Assembly (NCBI GenBank): GCA_015065425.1
Contig: SVQH01000006.1
Location: 1-64,000 of the forward strand
Length of the DNA stretch: 64,000 nt
Direction: 5' to 3'
DNA from: Oscillospiraceae bacterium
Lineage (GTDB): Bacteria; Bacillota; Clostridia; Oscillospirales; Acutalibacteraceae
Below the pieces are notes generated by a model. That model did not search any database, was not told the DNA's origin, and saw only the letters and a program-made list of their open reading frames with translations. Positions 55 through 12,541 of the stretch are shown here, piece after piece (positions within the stretch are counted from its first letter, which is position 1; the number at the start of each line of letters is the position of its first letter). The position numbers and the translations under genes are program-made.

Positions 55-318
55 TCAATATTTTAAAAGTGGTGTTATGTATAAATCAGCTCTGAGTAAA
101 TTAAAGTAAATTAATAGTAAATTAATTAATTCTGTTGTAACAACTTCACGTGTCCTTGCTTCAATATTCTGTATACGGCATATCCATTCCATCTGATTAT
201 CTTTTTTTAGTTGCTCAGTTACACCTTCAGCCTTTTTCATCTGTTCCACGAGAGTATCAAACATCTCATGAGCCTGATTTTCTACCTCGGCACAATGTTG
301 ATAAAGTTTACCACATGT
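55..318 (-). pseudogene. TnpV-like protein, C-terminal remnant
   Basis: Reading the minus strand from about 318 downwards gives KLYQHCAEVENQAHEMF, then EGVTEQLKKDNQMEW and TREVVTTELI. This is the conserved second half of TnpV, a small protein of unknown role carried by Tn4451-like transposons. No start codon or N-terminal half remains. Homology stops abruptly near 315-321, where the recombinase tail begins on the other strand. The residues after TTELI do not look like TnpV and run to a stop at 55. I infer a deletion that joined two parts of one mobile element. Confidence 0.6.
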
Positions 319-671
319 CGCACCAATATGAGGTTGAGAGAGCAGAACTGAAGGTTAAGATATTTAACCTTAGAGAAAAGGTAGCAAATATGCAGACAGT
401 TCAGCACAGCAAGGATATGTTTATCGGTGCGGTAAGAAAGTTCTTGGACATGGATACTATCACTGCACCACTAATTCACGAGCTCATTGACCACATTGAT
501 GTTTATGAGGCAGAGGGCAAGGGTAAAAACAAGACACAGAGAGTTGTGATTCACTACAACTTTGTAGGTTATCTTGAAATCCCTGAGAATGACGAGCCTT
601 GCTTTACGGCAGATACCCGTCAGGGAGTAGCAATAGGATATATTGCAAAACCTACAGAAAAGTCAGCATAA
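315..671 (+). pseudogene. Large serine recombinase (TnpX-like), C-terminal remnant
   Basis: The open frame from 315 encodes the coiled coil and C-terminal DUF4368-type region of a large serine recombinase of transposon type: HQYEVERAELKVKI, then AVRKFLDMDTITAPLIHEL, the IDHIDVYEAEGKGK segment and a beta-rich end. The N-terminal resolvase catalytic domain and the central recombinase domain are missing, so it cannot be active. The frame stays open upstream to 150, but that stretch lies antisense to the TnpV remnant and is not recombinase-like. Together with the TnpV fragment it marks a dead integrative element next to a tRNA gene. Confidence 0.7.
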
Positions 672-796: not shown

Positions 797-873
797 TGGT
801 CGGAGTGACGGGATTCGAACCCACGACCTCTTGGTCCCGAACCAAGCGCACTACCAAACTGTGCCACACCCCG
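797..873 (-). tRNA. tRNA-Pro (CGG anticodon)
   Basis: On the minus strand the gene starts CGGGGTG and ends CACTCCG-A-CCA, giving a 7-bp acceptor stem with one G-U pair and an encoded CCA. The anticodon arm is CTTGG, loop TTCGGGA, CCAAG, so the anticodon is CGG, read as proline. The T arm carries GGTTCGAATCC. Length 77 nt fits tRNA-Pro. It is a single tRNA gene with its own promoter and terminator. Confidence 0.95.
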
Positions 874-2137: not shown

Positions 2138-5100
2138 ATGATTTTAGAGGATCTTACCCAACTTCGTAATCTTAAACAGATGGTTGATTACGCTGCTGAA
2201 AACTTTGCTGACACTGATTTTATTCAGTATAAGGTTCCCGGGGGAACGGGATCAAAAAAATACAGCCGTTTAAAAAAAGACTGTGATGCCTTCAGCCTTA
2301 TGCTCGAGGACAAAGGCCTTCGCGGTGCACATGTCGCAGTTATCGGTGCTACAAGCTATAATTGGATAGTGACTTATTTCGGAACGGTTGCAACTGAAAG
2401 TGTTATAGTTCCTCTTGCAACAACAGAGACGACAGAAATGAATTGTCGTCTTATGGATTTTTCCGATGCAGATGTACTGGTTTTCGATGAAAAATGTAAA
2501 CCTTTGTATAAAGCAGCCCGTGAACAGCTTCACGGGATAAAACTGTTCATATCCTCAGATGATACCGCCGATGAAGACGGAGTTGAAAATTTCAGCGATA
2601 TCCTTAAAAAATATAAAGGTGAATACCATAAAGAACCCGATGCCGAAAAAACCTGTGCCATAATGTTTACATCAGGTACTACGGGATTTCCCAAGGGAGT
2701 AATGCTCTCTCATAAAAATCTTGTTTATTCTGCAACAAGCGTTCATATTGCCTGTCCTACAACAAAAATGTTCTGTTGTCTTCCGATACATCACGGCTTT
2801 TGTTTTACTGCAAATATTACAAAGAGCATCTGTAAGGGTAAAACCGTCTGCGTGAATGACAATCTTGCCGATATTGTACCAGACCTTCGCTTGTTTAAGC
2901 CTGACAGTATCGTGGCAGTTCCTCAGATAATTAAAAAACTTATGGGTGGTGCACTTAAATATGCCTCATCAAAGCCCGATATGACGGAAGAAGAGGCTGT
3001 AAGAGAGTTTCTCGGGGGAAATATCATTGATATCATTTCAGGCGGTGCTCCTCTTGATGCCGCACTCAATGAAAGATTTAATGCAACAGGTGTACTTGTT
3101 CTCAACGGCTACGGAATGACAGAGTGTTCACCCATTATTTCAAACAATGCCGTCGGTAATTTCCGTCACGGCTCTGTCGGTATGCCCATTCCTTGTATGG
3201 ATGTAAAAATAGTTGACGGAGAAATACTTGTAAAGGGCCCCAGTGTCATGCAGGGGTATTATAAAAACCCCGAAGCTACAAAGGAAGCCTTTACCGAGGA
3301 CGGATATCTTCATACAGGAGATGTCGGTCACTTTGACGATGACGGATTCCTCTATATTACGGGCAGATGTAAAAATCTCATTTTGCTCGACAACGGTGAA
3401 AATGTTTCCGCAGAAATGCTTGAAGATAAATTTTCTTTTGAACCTATGGTTCAGGAGGTCGTATGCTTCGGTGAAGACGGTGCAATATATGCTGAAATAT
3501 ATCCCGATAAGACATATATTGCCGAAAACAATATAACCGATATTGATAAGGCAATGATTGAAATGCTTATGCGTGTCAATTCCACTCTTGCAGGTTTTCA
3601 GAGAGTTTCCGCATACATACTAAGAGATACTCCTTTTGAAAGAACCGCTTCATCAAAAATAAAAAGAGGTGCTCACGGAGCAGTTAAAAAGGCAGCTCCC
3701 GTGGAACCTGAAACTCCCGAAGAGAAAAAAGTTTTTGATGCAGTAAAAGAGCTGCTCGGTCTTTCAATTCTCAGTATGACAGACAATTTCTTCGCAGTAG
3801 GCGGTGATTCACTCAATGCTGTTGAGCTTGCCGTTTCTCTTAACATAAAGCCTCAGGAGGTTTATGATAATCCTTTCCTTTATGCACTTGCAAATAAACT
3901 TAAGGAAAATACTGAAACCGAGGCAGACGGAATCAGTAACATAAATGAACTCATACTTGAAACAGAAAGTCCCGATATTCCTGAGATAAAATATTCATCT
4001 GCCCTTCTTACGGGTGCTACGGGTTTCCTCGGTATTCATATTCTCAAAGAGCTTATTGATTCGGGACTTAAAGTATATTGCCTTGTCCGAAACGAAAAGA
4101 AGCTTTTGTCACAGATAAAATATTATTTCGGCTCTCTTGATATGACAAATATCAGAGTAGTTCCGGGAAACATTGAGGCACACAGGCTGGGACTCAGTAA
4201 AGAAGATTATGAAACTCTTGCAAAAGAGGTTGATGTTGTTTATCATGTTGCCGCAAATGTTCATCATGCAGGTGACTATTGCGACCTTGAAAGAACAAAT
4301 GTGGGTGGTACAAAAAATGTTATAGATTTTTGCTTTTTTGCCGATGCTGTATTGCAGCATACATCTACGGTAAGTGTACATGGTGCTGCCACGGTCCGTC
4401 AGAGTTTCAAAAATGCCGTTTTTCATGAACATATACTTGACATCGGTCAGCATTACTGTGACAATGTATACATTCACAGTAAATACCGTGCCGAAGAGGC
4501 TGTTATTGAAGCAAGAACCCGCGGACTTAAAGCCAATATCTACCGTATAGGCAATCTCACATGGAGAGCATCTGACGGAAAATTCCAAAGTAACTCTGCA
4601 GACAACGGTTTCCTGCACCGCCTTCATGCAATGCTGAAACTGGGGCTTTATCATGAAAATATGGATAAATATCCCATGGATCTGACTGCAGTTGACGAAT
4701 GTGCGGATGCTTTTGTAAAACTTTCGCTGCTCGGCAAGGTAAATGAAATATATCATCTGTTCAATCATAATTTCCTTGATTCAAGGGATATGTTTGAATT
4801 TCTCGGTGTTTCATACCGTCATGTATCTGCAACTGAGATGATAGAAACAGCGTTTGCAAATACTTCCGACAGAGATATACATGTATATCTTTTCTATATG
4901 ATAATTTCGGGGCGTTCGCAGAATGTCCCCATGTATAATGATTTTACCCTTTCGAGACTCAGAAAAACAGGTTTCAGATGGAGTATTCCCGATAAAAAGT
5001 ATCTTACGGTATCCTCCGACGGAGAAAAAGGATTGTGTCTTGATTTTGACCCGGTGGAAATAAAATCCATGAGAAAAACAGGTGGTATACTGAATCCCAT

Positions 5101-6268
5101 TCAGAAGCTTACTTTAGGGGTGCTTAAAAATGCTTATCCTGTTGACAGTAAGGTTATAAGAGGAGCAGGAAAGATAGCTGAGCTTAAAAATGAGCTTGGA
5201 TTAATGGGTGTAAAAAGACCTCTTGTCATAACTCTTCCGAATGCAGATTCATTTAAGGGTATAAATACTTTTATTAATTCATTCTCCGAAAAGCCTGTTG
5301 TTTTTGATGCAATTTACGGGGAACCCACCGTTAAGAATACTGATGATGCACTCGCTTTGTATATTGAAAACGGATGTGATTCTGTTGTAGGTATCGGCGG
5401 CGGTTCGGTACTTGATACTGCAAAAATAGTAGCATTGAGAGCAAACAATAGAGACAGCGTAATTGATGATATATGTAAGCTTGAAAGTGACGCAAATATG
5501 AGTGTCCCGCTGTTTCTTGTTCCTACAACGGCAGGTACAGGCTCGGAGGTGACCTTTTTCGCTGTTGCTACCGAGGAGGAAGAAAACAAAAAGAGACCCT
5601 TTGTAAGTGATAAATATCTTCCCGATGTTGTAATACTTGACCCTGAGCTTACTCTTACGGTCCCCGCAAAGAGTACTGCTTTTACGGGAATTGATGCCAT
5701 GTCCCACGCAATAGAAAGTTATGTAAGTCTTTTTGCATCTGCTTTTGAAGAGGATGCTGCACTTTCTCCCGATGTATGTAAGGACATTTTCGCTCATCTT
5801 TACAATGCCTGTCTCAATCCTGCTGATATTTTTTCCCGTGAGGTGCTTCAGAATGCGGCATTTAATGCAGGTCTTTCTTTCAGAAGAATCGGAACAGGAT
5901 ATATTCACGCCATAGGACACAGACTCGGTGAATTCTGTCACATTCCTCACGGACTTGCAATAGCTGTATGTATTGCTCCCGTTCTTCGTGCATATCTGCC
6001 TTTCGGAGCAGATAAGCTTTCTGAACTTGCATTGCACTGCGGTATCGGAAGTGTTACCGATACAAACGAAGTCAATGCGGAAAACTTTATTTCAGCCATT
6101 GAAAAGCTTATCGGAAAGCTGGGTATTTCTGCTGATTCAATAGAATTCAACGAAGGTGACATCGATGAGATAACAAGACGGTCACAGGAAGAAGCAAAAA
6201 TAATCGGTTATCCGAGACCCTTCAGTGATGAAGAGCTTAAGAGTATTATTCTTTCAATTTTCAGATAA
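2138..6268 (+). CDS. Four-domain carboxylic acid reductase-alcohol dehydrogenase fusion (A-T-R-ADH)
   Basis: A 1376-residue enzyme in one unbroken frame. Residues 1-510 are an acyl-adenylating domain of fatty-acid ligase type, with TSGTTGFPKG (178-187), NGYGMTECSP (323-332), TGD near 395 and the C-terminal catalytic lysine in SSKIKR (K507). Residues 525-590 are a carrier domain with phosphopantetheine serine S558 in GGDSLNA. Residues 620-980 are a thioester reductase of short-chain dehydrogenase type (TGATGFLG 625-632, YxxxK Y778/K782). Residues 1000-1376 are an iron alcohol dehydrogenase (GGGSVLDTAK 1087-1096; likely metal ligands D1186, H1190, H1257, H1271). By analogy with carboxylic acid reductases it should activate an acid, load it on the carrier, reduce it to an aldehyde, and pass this to the dehydrogenase to give an alcohol. 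Substrate unknown; a fatty acid is my guess from the adenylation domain. No signal peptide. A phosphopantetheinyl transferase must act in trans. Confidence 0.88.
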   Translation: MILEDLTQLRNLKQMVDYAAENFADTDFIQYKVPGGTGSKKYSRLKKDCDAFSLMLEDKGLRGAHVAVIGATSYNWIVTYFGTVATESVIVPLATTETTEMNCRLMDFSDADVLVFDEKCKPLYKAAREQLHGIKLFISSDDTADEDGVENFSDILKKYKGEYHKEPDAEKTCAIMFTSGTTGFPKGVMLSHKNLVYSATSVHIACPTTKMFCCLPIHHGFCFTANITKSICKGKTVCVNDNLADIVPDLRLFKPDSIVAVPQIIKKLMGGALKYASSKPDMTEEEAVREFLGGNIIDIISGGAPLDAALNERFNATGVLVLNGYGMTECSPIISNNAVGNFRHGSVGMPIPCMDVKIVDGEILVKGPSVMQGYYKNPEATKEAFTEDGYLHTGDVGHFDDDGFLYITGRCKNLILLDNGENVSAEMLEDKFSFEPMVQEVVCFGEDGAIYAEIYPDKTYIAENNITDIDKAMIEMLMRVNSTLAGFQRVSAYILRDTPFERTASSKIKRGAHGAVKKAAPVEPETPEEKKVFDAVKELLGLSILSMTDNFFAVGGDSLNAVELAVSLNIKPQEVYDNPFLYALANKLKENTETEADGISNINELILETESPDIPEIKYSSALLTGATGFLGIHILKELIDSGLKVYCLVRNEKKLLSQIKYYFGSLDMTNIRVVPGNIEAHRLGLSKEDYETLAKEVDVVYHVAANVHHAGDYCDLERTNVGGTKNVIDFCFFADAVLQHTSTVSVHGAATVRQSFKNAVFHEHILDIGQHYCDNVYIHSKYRAEEAVIEARTRGLKANIYRIGNLTWRASDGKFQSNSADNGFLHRLHAMLKLGLYHENMDKYPMDLTAVDECADAFVKLSLLGKVNEIYHLFNHNFLDSRDMFEFLGVSYRHVSATEMIETAFANTSDRDIHVYLFYMIISGRSQNVPMYNDFTLSRLRKTGFRWSIPDKKYLTVSSDGEKGLCLDFDPVEIKSMRKTGGILNPIQKLTLGVLKNAYPVDSKVIRGAGKIAELKNELGLMGVKRPLVITLPNADSFKGINTFINSFSEKPVVFDAIYGEPTVKNTDDALALYIENGCDSVVGIGGGSVLDTAKIVALRANNRDSVIDDICKLESDANMSVPLFLVPTTAGTGSEVTFFAVATEEEENKKRPFVSDKYLPDVVILDPELTLTVPAKSTAFTGIDAMSHAIESYVSLFASAFEEDAALSPDVCKDIFAHLYNACLNPADIFSREVLQNAAFNAGLSFRRIGTGYIHAIGHRLGEFCHIPHGLAIAVCIAPVLRAYLPFGADKLSELALHCGIGSVTDTNEVNAENFISAIEKLIGKLGISADSIEFNEGDIDEITRRSQEEAKIIGYPRPFSDEELKSIILSIFR

Positions 6269-6277
6269 GGTGATGTT

Positions 6278-7294
6278 ATGTCCGACAAAAAGAAAACGGA
6301 TATTCTGAAAGTTTTTGCAGGTGCTGCCATAGCGGCGGCATCTGTGCTTTTTATTTGGATGCTGTCAGAACCGCGTTTTTATAATATTCCTCCTGTTATA
6401 TTAATTGCAGTAATTATTGCTTTTATTGGTGAAACAGCACTTCTTGTTGTTTTAAGAGGAAAGAACATATTAAAAAGAATAATTAAAATTATCCTGCTTT
6501 TGGCGGTAAATATTTCAGTCTTCACTTGTGCTGTTATTTATAGCTTTGCCCCTGCTTTTATTCTTCAGCCCCATTCGGATGAAACTTCTTATGAAGCACT
6601 GAAAACCCATCCGTCTGCCGAGGAAATAAGCTTTGAAGGGACAAACGGCAGTATAAACGGATGGTTTTATAATGCGGCAGGGCGGAGTGCTCCGACTGTT
6701 TTATATTTTTACGGAAATTATGAAACCGCATCAACAAGACTTTTGCAGCTTAGCCGTAATTATGAAAATTCAGCCTTCCGCGATTGCAATTTTGCGGTTT
6801 TTGATTATCCCTCTTACGGAAAAACTGAGGGCAGATGCTCGGATGATACGCTTCTTGCCTTTTCCCTTGATGTTTTTGATAAACTTTCAGAAATAACGGA
6901 TAATATTATTGTTCTCGGCTATTCCGTGGGTACGGGACCCGCCTGTTATCTTGCAAGTAAGCGGGATGTGAAGGCTCTTGTGCTTTATGCCCCCTACAGT
7001 AACGGAGTTGACCTTTATAACAATGTTATTGATATCTTCCACGGTGCTTTGGAAGGGCTTGTATCATTTAATATCGAAAACGAAATTTATGCTTCGCAGA
7101 TTGCCGAAAAAGCACTTGTTTTTGCATCTCCGAGTGACGAACTCATTCCGTATTCGTCTTCGATGAGGCTGTCGGAGAAATTTGATGTTTGTAATTTTGT
7201 TACGGTACAGGGAATCGGACACAATGATTTTCTTTCAAACGGAGAAATAAAAGAGAAAACAGCAGGGTTTATAAAAGAGGTGACGGCAGAATGA
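6278..7294 (+). CDS. Membrane-anchored alpha/beta hydrolase
   Basis: A 338-residue protein with three N-terminal membrane segments (about 12-29, 38-58, 68-92) followed by an alpha/beta hydrolase domain resembling the BEM46/ABHD13 group. The nucleophile elbow is GYSVG (S216); D287 in SPSDELIP and H315 in GIGHNDF complete a plausible triad. The domain most likely faces outward if the first helix enters from the cytosol, but topology is not certain. It begins 9 bp after the fusion enzyme and overlaps the next gene by 4 bp, so all three are probably one operon. Expected activity is ester, thioester or amide hydrolysis on a lipid-like substrate; this is inference. Confidence 0.8.
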   Translation: MSDKKKTDILKVFAGAAIAAASVLFIWMLSEPRFYNIPPVILIAVIIAFIGETALLVVLRGKNILKRIIKIILLLAVNISVFTCAVIYSFAPAFILQPHSDETSYEALKTHPSAEEISFEGTNGSINGWFYNAAGRSAPTVLYFYGNYETASTRLLQLSRNYENSAFRDCNFAVFDYPSYGKTEGRCSDDTLLAFSLDVFDKLSEITDNIIVLGYSVGTGPACYLASKRDVKALVLYAPYSNGVDLYNNVIDIFHGALEGLVSFNIENEIYASQIAEKALVFASPSDELIPYSSSMRLSEKFDVCNFVTVQGIGHNDFLSNGEIKEKTAGFIKEVTAE

Positions 7295-7539
7295 AAAATG
7301 AATTGAAAAAATCTCTTAAAATTGCCGCACTTTTTATTTCTTTCGGGCTTCTGATTTCACTGTTTGTGTTTTTTCTTCTTTTCGGAAAAGGGCTTCAGAT
7401 ACTTCTGCCCCTGATTTTTTTCTGTATATTTTTTGCAGTTTTCTTTCTTTTTGAAAAACTGCCCTTTATAAAGCGACATACTATATTAAAAATTATTGCA
7501 GCATTGATTCTTATTGCAGTTTTTATTGTGATACTTTAA
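7291..7539 (+). CDS. Small membrane protein
   Basis: An 82-residue hydrophobic protein with two to three predicted membrane segments (about 10-30, 32-52, 62-82) separated by short basic stretches. No family recognised. Its ATG overlaps the hydrolase stop codon (ATGA), which ties it to the fusion-enzyme operon by translational coupling. Confidence 0.65.
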   Translation: MKNELKKSLKIAALFISFGLLISLFVFFLLFGKGLQILLPLIFFCIFFAVFFLFEKLPFIKRHTILKIIAALILIAVFIVIL

Positions 7540-8221: not shown

Positions 8222-10177
8222 TCAGTTCTCCCTTTCTAAAACAGCTTCAGCATAAATCTCGCTGTTGACATAAAGTATCCCATTGACCTGTGCAGGTAAA
8301 TACATTTTGCCTTCCTTATATTCTGCGGTGTGCCCGCCGCCACCGAAATTCAGGATATCGTCCCAGTTTTCGCTGAGTGTTGTTGATGAACTTAATGAGC
8401 CGTTTGTGCTCGAAGAAGAAAAATCTCCGTCTGTTACAGTTGATATTTTTTCCAATAAACTGCTTAGTGCCTTCTGTGGAGCCGAAGGAGCATCAGAAGA
8501 GGTTATGAGTTTATCAATAATACTGCTTTCTTTTCCTTCTGAACTCGAGAAGCCCAAACGGGTTATCTCAGACTTTTTTTCTTCGGGACCGTGATAAATA
8601 CACCGTGAAAAAGTATATACGGTTACTTCATAAAACGGGGCATTGAGAATTGGTGTTGACACATTTTTATAATTTTTGTTAATGTTAAAGCACAGCTGAT
8701 AGTGACGTTCAAGAGTAAAATCATCTGTTTCGGCACGGTATATATAAGTCGGTAAATCCTGACAGCCCAATGTTCCTAACATTTTGTATGTCAGAACATA
8801 ATTGAAATCAGAAGAAGCAGTCACGACCCACCTGTTATCTTCTTTAAAAACCTTTACCTTCTGATACGCTATTTTCTGATTATTGTATTCATTGGGGTCA
8901 TGGTAGTTTATTATGAAAACAAGATATGCACTGTATTCATCGTCTCCGGTTTCTTCAAAATTATAAATATAATAACTGTTCGAATCCTCGGGAGAGCCGT
9001 CAACACCTGCACTCCATAGTGGAAAATGCTTACTTTCCAGATTCTGTTTTATTGTGTTTTTTATTTCTTCATGATGGGATAGAGGAGCTGAGACAGCCCT
9101 GTATATACCGTTATTCTGAAGCACTGCCTTGCCGTATGTGTCAAGTGCGGCAGCGGGTGTTGTGCAGAAATAACTTCTTGCCGCCGATAAAGCAACGGCA
9201 ATCGATGTTTCGTTTGTCACCTGAATATATCTTTCGGGAAGAATTGCTGCATTTACCCGTATCAGCAAAAATGATGCCATAATCAGTGTTATGCATACTG
9301 AAATCAATGCGTTGTTTACAGGGTACTGTTTGAATCTGACTATTGTTTCAATGCGGGAGCTTATGTTTTTTCCTCCGTTTGCTATTGATGTTGTTCCGAA
9401 ACAGGATGAATATTTTTCATTTGCCATGGAAAGAAGTATATTTCCGTATTCCCGCCTTTCTTCTCCTTCAATAAGAGAGAGAACTCTCGAATCACATAAT
9501 TCTTCTATATCGTTATTGATTTTATTAAAGCAATGCCATAAAACCGGATTGCACCAATGTATTGAACGAAAAAGTGCAATAAAAATTCCCCAAAAAGCAT
9601 CCTTGTATTTCAGGTGAAGAAGCTCGTGCAGTACGATTTTTTCGTCGGGAAAATCTTCGGGGAGAATAAGAACAGGATTTATAAAACCGAAAATAAAGGG
9701 AGAAGAAAGCCCCTTCATTGTAACGGCTCTACACTTTTTCAGCAGATATTTTCCTGCTATTGAACTTAGTTTTTCTTTATTTTCAGCGGATAAGGGGGGA
9801 CACTTTTTGGTGACTATCTTTAACCTGACAAAAGATATAAGATATTTGATGAAAAATACAAATACACCTGATACATAAATCAGAAATAAGATGTCAGGAA
9901 TATTTTCGGGCACGGAAAAATCCGGCACGGGAAAGAAAAAAGCGGGTCTTGAAACTGTATATTCACCCGATGTAAATGTTTTCAGCAGTTCAGCAAAAAA
10001 CGAAATATTGCTTGAAAATGAAAAAGGAATCAGAAGTGCTGTTGCAAGAATACTCCACACTCCGAATTGCCAGGACGGATGAAGTTTATTGCGGAAGATT
10101 CTTTTTATGATAAGAATAAATATCCCTACTCCGCTGGCATAAGCAGTCTGTATGAGAAATTCAAATATATCGTGCAT
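8222..10177 (-). CDS. M56 (BlaR1-like) membrane metallopeptidase with a novel C-terminal domain
   Basis: A 651-residue protein. The first 310 residues match BlaR1/MecR1 sensors: four membrane segments and the zinc motif HELLH (H184, E185, H188), with a further acidic candidate ligand in ELCDSRV near 228. A last membrane segment (about 285-312) leads to an extracytoplasmic region of about 335 residues. In BlaR1 this part is a penicillin-binding sensor; here no SxxK/SxN/KTG set is evident, so it probably senses something else. It has a serine-rich patch near 575-610. On signal, such enzymes bring about cleavage of the BlaI-type repressor. GGAGGTG precedes the start, overlapping the end of the repressor gene. 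Confidence 0.82.
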   Translation of the reverse strand: MHDIFEFLIQTAYASGVGIFILIIKRIFRNKLHPSWQFGVWSILATALLIPFSFSSNISFFAELLKTFTSGEYTVSRPAFFFPVPDFSVPENIPDILFLIYVSGVFVFFIKYLISFVRLKIVTKKCPPLSAENKEKLSSIAGKYLLKKCRAVTMKGLSSPFIFGFINPVLILPEDFPDEKIVLHELLHLKYKDAFWGIFIALFRSIHWCNPVLWHCFNKINNDIEELCDSRVLSLIEGEERREYGNILLSMANEKYSSCFGTTSIANGGKNISSRIETIVRFKQYPVNNALISVCITLIMASFLLIRVNAAILPERYIQVTNETSIAVALSAARSYFCTTPAAALDTYGKAVLQNNGIYRAVSAPLSHHEEIKNTIKQNLESKHFPLWSAGVDGSPEDSNSYYIYNFEETGDDEYSAYLVFIINYHDPNEYNNQKIAYQKVKVFKEDNRWVVTASSDFNYVLTYKMLGTLGCQDLPTYIYRAETDDFTLERHYQLCFNINKNYKNVSTPILNAPFYEVTVYTFSRCIYHGPEEKKSEITRLGFSSSEGKESSIIDKLITSSDAPSAPQKALSSLLEKISTVTDGDFSSSSTNGSLSSSTTLSENWDDILNFGGGGHTAEYKEGKMYLPAQVNGILYVNSEIYAEAVLEREN

Positions 10178-10179
10178 AT

Positions 10180-10542
10180 TTACACCTCCATATTATCAAG
10201 CAAATTTTTGAGTTTTTGCATTTCTTCCTTTGTTATCGTTTCTTCCTTGAGAAAAGCGGCAATCATATCACTCGTACTGCCTTTATATACACGGCGAAGA
10301 AAGCTTTGTCTTTCGTTTTTCTGACATTCATCTTTTGTAAGTGCGGCTTTATAAATATGCGGATTCATATTCTTGTCAATGAAAACAAGCCCTTTGGCTT
10401 CCATTCTTGTAAGATAAGTGTGAACGGTGTTGCGACTCCATGCAGTATCTTTTTTCAGCATTTCGACAATCTCACCCAGCTCACATCCGTCTGTTCCCCA
10501 TAATACTTCAAGAACTATCCATTCTTTATCCGATAATTTCAT
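10180..10542 (-). CDS. BlaI/MecI-family repressor
   Basis: A 120-residue winged-helix repressor: MKLSDKEWIVLEVLWG opens the domain, NTVHTYLTRMEAKGLV is the recognition-helix region and the C-terminal helices (EEMQKLKNLLDNM) form the dimerisation part. I place the start at 10542 because AGGAGG lies just upstream; the open frame continues to 10605 but that part overlaps the operator. It forms an operon with the M56 sensor and the membrane protein and should repress it through the palindromic operator at 10553-10592, with release when the sensor triggers its cleavage. Confidence 0.88.
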   Translation of the reverse strand: MKLSDKEWIVLEVLWGTDGCELGEIVEMLKKDTAWSRNTVHTYLTRMEAKGLVFIDKNMNPHIYKAALTKDECQKNERQSFLRRVYKGSTSDMIAAFLKEETITKEEMQKLKNLLDNMEV

Positions 10543-10552
10543 GGTAATTCCT

Positions 10553-10592
10553 CCTACAGTTGTAGTATCTGATATTATACTACAACTGTAGG
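10553..10592. promoter_or_regulatory. BlaI-type operator (two CTACA/TGTAG dyads)
   Basis: A perfect palindrome with 16-bp arms (10553-10568 and 10577-10592) and an 8-base centre. Each arm contains CTACA-two bases-TGTAG, close to the TACA/TGTA sites bound by BlaI/MecI dimers. It spans the -10 region and the ribosome-binding site of the repressor gene. Confidence 0.82.
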
Positions 10593-10605
10593 AGAAAATT
10601 GTCAA
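10577..10605 (-). promoter_or_regulatory. Promoter of the repressor-sensor operon
   Basis: Minus strand -35 TTGACA (10600-10605), 17-bp spacer, -10 TAGTAT (10577-10582), with TATAAT three bases further. The operator overlaps the -10 and initiation region, which explains autorepression. Confidence 0.75.
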
Positions 10606-10645
10606 TACGATTCTGAATTTTATTCTGCTGTTTTTGCCTTATTGA

Positions 10646-10674
10646 TTGACAATCAGTTGTTTTTAATATAAAAT
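10646..10674 (+). promoter_or_regulatory. Promoter of the ABC exporter operon
   Basis: TTGACA (10646-10651), 17-bp spacer, TAAAAT (10669-10674), 35 bp before the ATG. It diverges from the repressor promoter, but no BlaI dyad overlaps it. Confidence 0.75.
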
Positions 10675-10708
10675 TTCAATGATTTCAAACATATTCCGGA
10701 GATAGAAA

Positions 10709-12541
10709 ATGAACAAAAAGAAAAAACAGAAAAAGATAAGACAAAAGGCTTATGTGTTAAAAAACACAGCTTTTATGCTTGGCTGTGCTTTTAAGTGTGC
10801 ACCTTTGTCGCTTATTATTATCTATTTATCATATATTGCGGAAAATGTATATTATTCCGTTGTCATTAATGTTATGTTCCTTGAAACAGCATTGTCCATT
10901 GTCGAGGGCAACGGTACTTTCAATGAGTTCGTTTTTTGGATGAGTGTTATAGTTGCGGGAAAGCTTCTGATTGACCTTCTCGGTTACATTGATTTTTATA
11001 CTGTCAGGACAAAATTTGAAATTAAATGCGAAAGTTATATAAATTCGCTTATATTCAAAAAAGCTCAGGAGGTGGAACTGGGCTGTTATGAAGACCCCGA
11101 TTTCTTTGATAAATATAACCGTGCCACATGGGTAGTTGAAAAAGGCGGCTTCAAGAGAATAATTGAAGGCTCGGCCTGGACCATTGGCTCATTTATAAGC
11201 ATTGTTTCTCTTATCAGCTATCTTATTTCCATTGACCCTGTTCTTCTTATTTTTATCGTATGTCCTCTTGTGGTAATCGTTTTCAGAATATTCAAAAATA
11301 ATATGGAACTTGAAAAAGAAAAGGAAATGACCCCCTTTGAAAGACAGAAGGATTACGTAAGAAGAACCATTCTTCTCAAGGATTTCGCAAAGGAAATAAA
11401 AACAACGAATATATTTGCCGTCATTGATAAAAGATTCCGTTCTGCCATTCAGAAAAACATTGATGTCATAAAAAAATACGGCTGGAGGATAGCTGTTCTT
11501 GAGTGTATTTCGGATTATTTTGCTGAAATAATCCCCGTTACGGGAGGTTTTCTTTACGCCTGTTACAGGCTTATTGTAGTACAGAATCTTCCGATATCCG
11601 AATTCTCTGTTCTCATTTCTGCCATTACCACCTGCAGAAATAAGCTCAATCATCTTGCACATTATTTTGCCATGCAGCAAAAACACTGTCTGTGGGTTCA
11701 GAATTTGAGAGAATTCATTGAATACGAACCAAAGATAAAAGGCGGAGAACTCATCCCCGAGGATTTCAAAAGCCTTGAATTCAGAAATGTTTCCTTCAGA
11801 TATAAAGAAGACGGAGATTGTATTCTTAAAAATATTTCCTTTAAGATAGAAAAAGGTCAGACCGTAGCCATAGTAGGTCATAACGGTGCAGGTAAGACAA
11901 CTTTTTCAAAACTTCTTATGAGACTTTATGACGTAACGGACGGCGAAATACTTTATAACGGTATAAATATTAAAGAATATGACCTTATAAAATACCGTGA
12001 GAAATTTGCAGGAGTTTTTCAGGATTACCGTGTCTTTGCCATGAGTGTTTCCGAAAATGTGCTGACAAGAGAAATTACGCCCGAAAATGAAGCCGTGGCT
12101 GTAAAAGCTCTCAAAATGGCAGGTGTTTATGATAAGATAGCATCCCTTCCGGATAAGGAAAATTCAATACTTACCAAAGAATTTATGTCTGACGGTATCC
12201 TTCTTTCGGGCGGTGAGACACAGAAGGTCACCATTTCCCGTATTTTTGCAAGAGATTTTGATATTGCTGTTCTTGATGAGCCGTCTTCTGCTCTTGACCC
12301 TGTTGCTGAAAGTAAAATGTACGATGCACTTCTTGAAGGCACAAAAGGAAAGACGGTATTTTATATTTCACACCGTCTTTCAAGTGCCACTCGCTCGGAT
12401 AATATACTTGTTTTCAATAACGGAACCGTCATAGAAAGCGGAACCCATGAGCAGCTGATGGAAAAGGGCGGAGAATACAGCGAAATGTTTACGCTTCAGG
12501 CTTCGGGATATAAAGGGGAGGTGTCCTACGATGAAGAATAA
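10709..12541 (+). CDS. ABC exporter half-transporter, subunit 1
   Basis: A 610-residue fused permease-ATPase of exporter type: a basic N-terminus, about six membrane helices through residue 320, then the nucleotide-binding domain. Walker A is GHNGAGKTT (390-398); the signature LSGGETQ lies near 499, followed by Walker B with catalytic glutamate (AVLDEPSSALDP) and the H-loop ISHRLSS. Its last 11 bases overlap the start of a second half-transporter, so the two should make a heterodimer. Substrate is not evident; both catalytic glutamates are intact, so two active sites are expected. Confidence 0.88.
   Translation: MNKKKKQKKIRQKAYVLKNTAFMLGCAFKCAPLSLIIIYLSYIAENVYYSVVINVMFLETALSIVEGNGTFNEFVFWMSVIVAGKLLIDLLGYIDFYTVRTKFEIKCESYINSLIFKKAQEVELGCYEDPDFFDKYNRATWVVEKGGFKRIIEGSAWTIGSFISIVSLISYLISIDPVLLIFIVCPLVVIVFRIFKNNMELEKEKEMTPFERQKDYVRRTILLKDFAKEIKTTNIFAVIDKRFRSAIQKNIDVIKKYGWRIAVLECISDYFAEIIPVTGGFLYACYRLIVVQNLPISEFSVLISAITTCRNKLNHLAHYFAMQQKHCLWVQNLREFIEYEPKIKGGELIPEDFKSLEFRNVSFRYKEDGDCILKNISFKIEKGQTVAIVGHNGAGKTTFSKLLMRLYDVTDGEILYNGINIKEYDLIKYREKFAGVFQDYRVFAMSVSENVLTREITPENEAVAVKALKMAGVYDKIASLPDKENSILTKEFMSDGILLSGGETQKVTISRIFARDFDIAVLDEPSSALDPVAESKMYDALLEGTKGKTVFYISHRLSSATRSDNILVFNNGTVIESGTHEQLMEKGGEYSEMFTLQASGYKGEVSYDEE

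Follow-up and report, generated by a model that had tools for sequence, protein, structure and literature searches.

What does a bacterium make with a single protein that joins an acid-activating domain, an acyl carrier, a thioester reductase and an alcohol dehydrogenase? The question is raised by a gene near the start of a stretch of 64,000 nucleotides (the window; positions 1 to 64,000 of contig SVQH01000006.1, assembly GCA_015065425.1) from an Oscillospiraceae bacterium of the family Acutalibacteraceae. The gene encodes adenylation (A), carrier (T), thioester reductase (R) and iron alcohol dehydrogenase (Fe-ADH) domains in one frame (Table 1), and an earlier note on this DNA had proposed that it makes a long-chain alcohol for an unusual lipid, assisted by a membrane hydrolase encoded beside it. 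Judging from its sequence and that of its relatives, the protein is probably a single-polypeptide reductase that takes a carboxylic acid to an alcohol, a statement that concerns the chemistry only.

The four-domain frame described in the earlier note is borne out by Pfam, in which every profile exceeds its curated cut-off: AMP-binding at residues 19-375 (5e-60), AMP-binding_C_3 at 414-512 (23.7 bits, cut-off 20.8), PP-binding at 531-569 (25.0 bits, cut-off 20.8), NAD_binding_4 at 624-858 (2e-41), Fe-ADH at 1004-1169 (1e-41) and ADH_Fe_C at 1180-1373 (1e-30). A stop-free run as long as 1376 codons has a chance of about 1e-39 at 40% GC. The carrier and AMP-binding_C_3 are the lowest-scoring domains; the carrier serine is nonetheless present in all 21 sequences of an alignment of the window enzyme with 20 relatives, the most divergent about 50% identical to it (incomplete rows are those for G060, G621, G629 and G613, the last also interrupted by an in-frame stop). 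Residues K507, S558, Y778 and K782 are identical in 21/21 rows, and the metal ligands are the same in every row that reaches them (D1186 and H1190 in 19/19, H1257 and H1271 in 18/18). The A-T-R order is thus found with its catalytic residues, and Fe-ADH/ADH_Fe_C matches over the cut-off with D-H-H-H metal ligands; a profile search for each domain, which the earlier note had suggested as a check, leaves none of the four failing, and neither the carrier serine nor the metal site is dead in the alignment. In a tree of A domains, the nine from fused enzymes form one clade (97/100), although the tree does not resolve the deeper branching and several of its outgroup branches are very long.

From the observed domains, their order and the conserved residues we infer every reaction step. 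The A domain would activate a carboxylic acid with ATP to an acyl-AMP and load it on the enzyme's own phosphopantetheine arm at S558; the R domain would use NAD(P)H to convert the thioester into an aldehyde, which the C-terminal Fe-ADH would reduce to a primary alcohol before it escapes. One gene of the phosphopantetheinyl transferase (PPTase) superfamily was found in the genome. Its product has 213 residues, a length that we take to be typical of Sfp-type PPTases, and its best named models, AusB and HetI, score below cut-off; it could arm the enzyme's carrier.

The last reductive step finds a parallel in another family of the same order. In genome G522, an Fe-ADH gene (L106, 7091-8260) is followed, after 18 bases and in the same direction, by an A-T-R gene (8279-11188). 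The A-T-R protein is 40% identical to the window enzyme, and the dehydrogenase is 42.7% identical to the fused one (265 bits over 323 residues); no other iron ADH in the window's genome exceeds 36% identity to the fused ADH. Since genes that are neighbors in one genome and fused in another usually act in consecutive steps, this pair supports the acid-to-alcohol reading and fits the earlier suggestion that the dehydrogenase completes the reduction. On the other side, the G522 ADH resembles another iron ADH from the window's genome almost equally well (37.5% identity, 243 bits vs. 265), and a small ADH tree does not settle whether the G522 ADH and the fused ones are sisters. Around the A-T-R gene of G282 no ADH was noticed in the stretch read, by eye and from start sequences.

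Alternatively, the R domain may be a four-electron enzyme, the Fe-ADH doing other work such as oxidizing an alcohol or taking another aldehyde. Compared with solved proteins, the R domain is closest to the nonribosomal peptide synthetase (NRPS) chain 6vtj (1e-34), followed by the AusA reductase (4f6c, 9e-25), MxaA (4u7w, 1e-24) and a carboxylic acid reductase (CAR; 5msp, 1e-6), and by this ranking it is of the NRPS type, not the CAR type. MxaA, which we take to be a four-electron reductase, speaks for this alternative. However, the AusA reductase, presumably a two-electron enzyme, matches just as well and both are outranked by 6vtj, the metal site of the dehydrogenase is kept wherever the alignment covers it, and an ADH adjoins A-T-R in G522 as well. 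We therefore regard a four-electron R domain as improbable.

A further alternative is a minimal NRPS similar to ATRed that would produce an amino alcohol. The A-T-R order is common to ATRed, according to the excerpts of PMC7586950 that bear on it. Among the best 25 of 74 models there are also two whole-protein NRPS models, AusA (202 bits) and MxcG (162 bits), both far below their cut-offs. Against this, the single model on which the A domain scores highest describes a long-chain acyl-CoA ligase subfamily (227.6 bits, under the cut-off of 476), the general amino-acid adenylation model TIGR01733 is not in the best 25, and the residues HHGFCF stand where amino-acid-activating A domains presumably have Asp (aligned by eye). 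Among solved proteins, the A domain is closest to luciferases and malonyl-CoA synthetase, with CAR and a long-chain acyl-CoA synthetase next. This kinship argues against amino acids and leaves the chain length unfixed; the acid would be fatty, branched-chain or aryl, and we consider a minimal NRPS very improbable.

By function, the protein would combine a CAR or an ATRed with the C-terminal half of AdhE, which completes the product; it is a new architecture built from known parts. CARs share its A-T-R order and the first chemistry, from acid through thioester to aldehyde, but the window enzyme reaches 168.2 of the 1300 bits required by the curated CAR model NF041592, and has both an NRPS-type R domain and a fused Fe-ADH. 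That score places it outside the curated CAR family. AdhE, which passes its aldehyde on to alcohol, likewise has a C-terminal Fe-ADH behind an aldehyde-producing part, and AdhE chains match the window's ADH domain. It begins at acyl-CoA, however, via an aldehyde dehydrogenase domain, whereas the window enzyme, in which Pfam finds no such N-terminal domain, would begin at the acid via ATP, carrier and thioester reductase. ATRed shares the domain order and AusA the R-domain kinship, but these systems use amino acid or peptide substrates and have no dehydrogenase; the G522 pair has the identical domain set, encoded side by side in two genes. A search of titles and abstracts in open-access PMC found no A-T-R-Fe-ADH protein among the papers listed, subscription journals and preprints not being covered and protein-architecture databases not being searched.

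The remaining comparison, with myxobacterial ElbD, was drawn in the earlier note and bears on the lipid that the alcohol might enter. If it entered an ether lipid, the alcohol would provide a glycerol ether with its alkyl chain, in the manner of ElbD or of the mammalian FAR1-AGPS route. In the excerpts of PMC9131029 consulted, ElbD consists of FAR-like, acyl-CoA synthetase, acyl carrier protein and acyltransferase parts, so that acyl activation, carrier and a reductase-type module stand in one chain, and it is needed for most Myxococcus ether lipid. The domain order and content differ, however: those excerpts describe a FAR-like N-terminus and an AGPAT-like acyltransferase and name no Fe-ADH (PMC9131029), and in the window enzyme Pfam finds neither a FAR-like N-terminus nor an acyltransferase, nor anything ahead of AMP-binding, which starts at residue 19. 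DUF2229 has no match in the source genome (about 95% complete) and matches in 4/14 control genomes; no search was made for alkylglycerone-phosphate synthase. We take DUF2229 to be a marker of PlsA and of anaerobic plasmalogen synthesis. A term search in PMC12838417 yielded no confirmation that PlsA bears this domain, and the rejection of an ether lipid made by plasmalogen genes depends on a presumed marker to that extent. With module types only in common with ElbD and no DUF2229 match, the ether version of the lipid proposal is weakened and we give it little credence; the wax-like ester, which the earlier note had named beside it, is the version that the genomic context favors.

The distribution of the enzyme is narrow. 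Within the genus, 15/26 genomes carry it, counting matches that extend past the ligase region (a raw count of 17 includes G609 and G611, which have ligase-only matches and were excluded); in one carrier, G629, the sequence stops before the dehydrogenase. Eight carriers are among the 12 genus genomes with a listed completeness of 90% or more and contamination of 5% or less. In the family, the enzyme occurs in 7/250 genomes (the source genome included) and 5/135 genera, ending at residue 1042 in G060. The order sample (394 genomes) is a separate draw in which the other six family carriers are not listed; besides the source genome, it holds A-T-R proteins without a fused dehydrogenase in G282 and G522 and a ligase match only in G121. 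No carrier but the source genome was found in the class sample (391 genomes, E ≤ 1e-170) or the phylum sample (398 genomes, E ≤ 1e-150). All these sets are samples with mutual overlap. A scan of assembly contigs, which is no census, has one named carrier among its 80 listed loci, "Ruminococcaceae bacterium isolate RUG11941" (L021).

We favor over the ether lipid a reading in which the alcohol is supplied to an uncharacterized wax-like ester pathway. The alcohol would form one half of the ester, a stand-alone acyl ligase (T2) and other separate acyl ligases would supply the acyl half, and stand-alone condensation-type proteins would join the two into a wax-ester-like product. Taken alone, this use of the alcohol is a tentative proposal. 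In a survey of 21 enzyme loci with 14 neighbor proteins, T2 is near the enzyme gene at five: directly upstream on the same strand at three (G162, RUG11941 and G060) and downstream in convergent orientation at two (as the adjacent gene in G614 and at a distance of two genes in G610). A single T2 ligase used as query (E ≤ 1e-100) finds relatives in 22 of the 250 family genomes, this draw and that used for the enzyme being taken as identical from shared handles. They occur in 7/7 carriers of the enzyme vs. 15/243 other genomes (P = 1.5e-8, Fisher's test) and in 5/5 carrier genera vs. 8/130 others (P = 4e-6), P-values that are inflated by shared ancestry, since the genomes are not independent. At 54% identity or more, a T2 relative is present in 4/7 carriers (G162, G060, G003 and G056) vs. 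1/243 others (G076). These associations make T2 a better-supported candidate partner than the membrane hydrolase.

T2 also adjoins condensation and ligase genes in G614 and G187, and in G056 the enzyme is followed on one strand by GH3, condensation-type and ligase genes, the sole such locus of the 21. The HxxxD motif is present in 8/8 condensation-like proteins aligned, and both condensation proteins found in the source genome adjoin a ligase gene (G000:C10 and C43). Such a pairing of a carrier-free ligase with a condensation-type protein fits acyl transfer to an alcohol. The acyltransferase of the G187 cluster listed in Table 1 has Condensation and PapA_C matches over the cut-off and WS_DGAT_C just under it. 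A run of genes in G121 (L107, 1428-6303) encodes a membrane alpha/beta hydrolase, a condensation protein, a ligase and an SCP2 carrier, and by its content is a relative of the ligase-condensation pairs with a membrane hydrolase included. In G611 (L143, 7632-10420), the gene after GH3 encodes a sugar-transfer-associated ATP-grasp protein, so GH3 is not confined to the partners named above. A link between carriers and condensation subtype 2 (14/15 vs. 6/11 others, P = 0.054) was set aside, the subtypes having been drawn post hoc from identities.

Several observations weigh against the ester. Condensation-type proteins (E ≤ 1e-20) and GH3 proteins each occur in 26/26 genus genomes (GH3 also matches in 1/14 control genomes) and the enzyme in 15/26, so that both protein types are independent of the enzyme. 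At ten of the 21 loci, five of which span about 10 kb or less, the survey places none of its 14 proteins nearby; the link to an ester therefore rests on genome-wide co-occurrence and on the G056 cluster, which carries the step to a wax-like ester that we infer. Moreover, other T2 copies precede pyruvate/2-oxoacid:ferredoxin oxidoreductase genes in G187 and G003 (called by Pfam for three genes in G187 and one in G003; a case in G060 was called by eye). This suggests other acids for the T2 family, and such sets perhaps serve to make amino acids from branched or aromatic acids.

The same T2 neighbors would also suit a fermentative or redox role, in which a short, branched-chain or aromatic acid is reduced to an alcohol as an electron sink or excreted product and no lipid is made. 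The nearest solved relatives of the Fe-ADH domain, the methanol, Alcohol dehydrogenase 2 (3owo), 1,3-propanediol and lactaldehyde enzymes, point in this direction; we take them to act on short or small aldehydes, which counts against the "long-chain" of the original proposal. In addition, no condensation or GH3 gene is nearby at 20/21 loci. On the other hand, ATP spent on each acid would make a costly electron sink, and the GH3-condensation-ligase genes do come after the enzyme in G056. A fermentative role deserves serious consideration without being the likely outcome.

The membrane hydrolase has three hydrophobic stretches and a weakly recognized domain (Abhydrolase_1, 23.1 bits, below the cut-off of 25.8), and its candidate triad S216/D287/H315 is kept in two close relatives and one distant one. 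It occurs together with the TIM-barrel gene and the enzyme at 3/21 loci, those of the window, G619 and G616 (enzymes 82% and 77% identical to the window's), all in one close clade. The hydrolase partnership put forward in the earlier note is therefore rejected as a general one; within that clade, given the short gap and the conserved triad, the hydrolase does look real as a member of a local branch. A GFO_IDH_MocA oxidoreductase is near the enzyme at 2/21 loci (G628 and G615). Promoter-like matches are no more frequent than in shuffles (22 vs. 23.6), so that co-transcription as an "operon" rests on spacing and conserved order. Farther downstream, the window encodes a BlaR1-type M56 peptidase and a BlaI-type repressor (8222-10605), and an M56 gene is also downstream in G619 and G616.

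A tRNA adjoins the enzyme locus in 6/16 sources scanned: tRNA-Pro(cgg) in the window, G619 and G616, tRNA-Thr(ggt) in G628, G615 and G630. The use of two distinct tRNA sites suggests that the gene has been relocated or occupies a hotspot. On the far side of the tRNA there are a tyrosine integrase and a Rep with a Viral_Rep domain in G616 and G628, and a Rep and an FtsK-like gene in G630. Carriage by phage or plasmid was rejected: searches of plasmid and phage collections (E ≤ 1e-60) and of viral contigs gave no match to the enzyme. Near the contig end, a frame with DUF4368 (window 150-668) may be a recombinase remnant, since G616 has a longer recombinase with DUF4368 upstream.

Table 1. Features of the enzyme locus and of related loci (window positions unless a locus is named)
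Feature	Position	Strand	Remarks
A-T-R-ADH enzyme, four domains	2138..6268	+	ATG start, one uninterrupted frame, 1376 aa
Adenylation domain, acyl-CoA-ligase type	2192..3673 (aa 19-512)	+	K507
Carrier domain	3728..3844 (aa 531-569)	+	S558
Thioester reductase domain	4007..4711 (aa 624-858)	+	Y778/K782; top solved match NRPS chain 6vtj
Group III iron alcohol dehydrogenase	5147..6256 (aa 1004-1373)	+	D1186/H1190/H1257/H1271
AP_endonuc_2-type TIM-barrel protein, 278 aa	1187..2023	+	upstream neighbor in window, G619, G616
Membrane alpha/beta hydrolase, 338 aa	6278..7294	+	begins 9 bases past enzyme stop
Hydrophobic protein, 82 aa	7291..7539	+	overlaps hydrolase stop; conserved in G619 and G616
T2-type ligase by 2-oxoacid:ferredoxin oxidoreductase genes	L155 7834-12501 (G187); L160 4781-9168 (G003)		
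GH3, then PapA-like acyltransferase, then acyl ligase	L142 5942-10814 (G187)		second possible ester-forming cluster in a carrier
tRNAs by enzyme loci	window 797-873 (-); L117 13116-13192; L118 13063-13139; L119 6462-6537; L120 7082-7157; L124 6389-6464		

According to excerpts of PMC7744569, CAR routes to fatty alcohol depend on separate aldehyde reductases or dehydrogenases. A natural one-chain enzyme from acid to alcohol would be a ready-made tool, and a parallel to AdhE that starts from the free acid. Rather unlikely as a whole is a previously undescribed anaerobic pathway for a wax-like ester lipid in the family's gut Clostridia, comprising the four-domain enzyme, T2 and other ligases (perhaps GH3) and condensation-type enzymes, without a classical fatty acyl-CoA reductase. 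If the alcohol does enter an ester lipid, these mostly uncultured gut and rumen bacteria would have a lipid pathway that is not visible from domain annotation alone.

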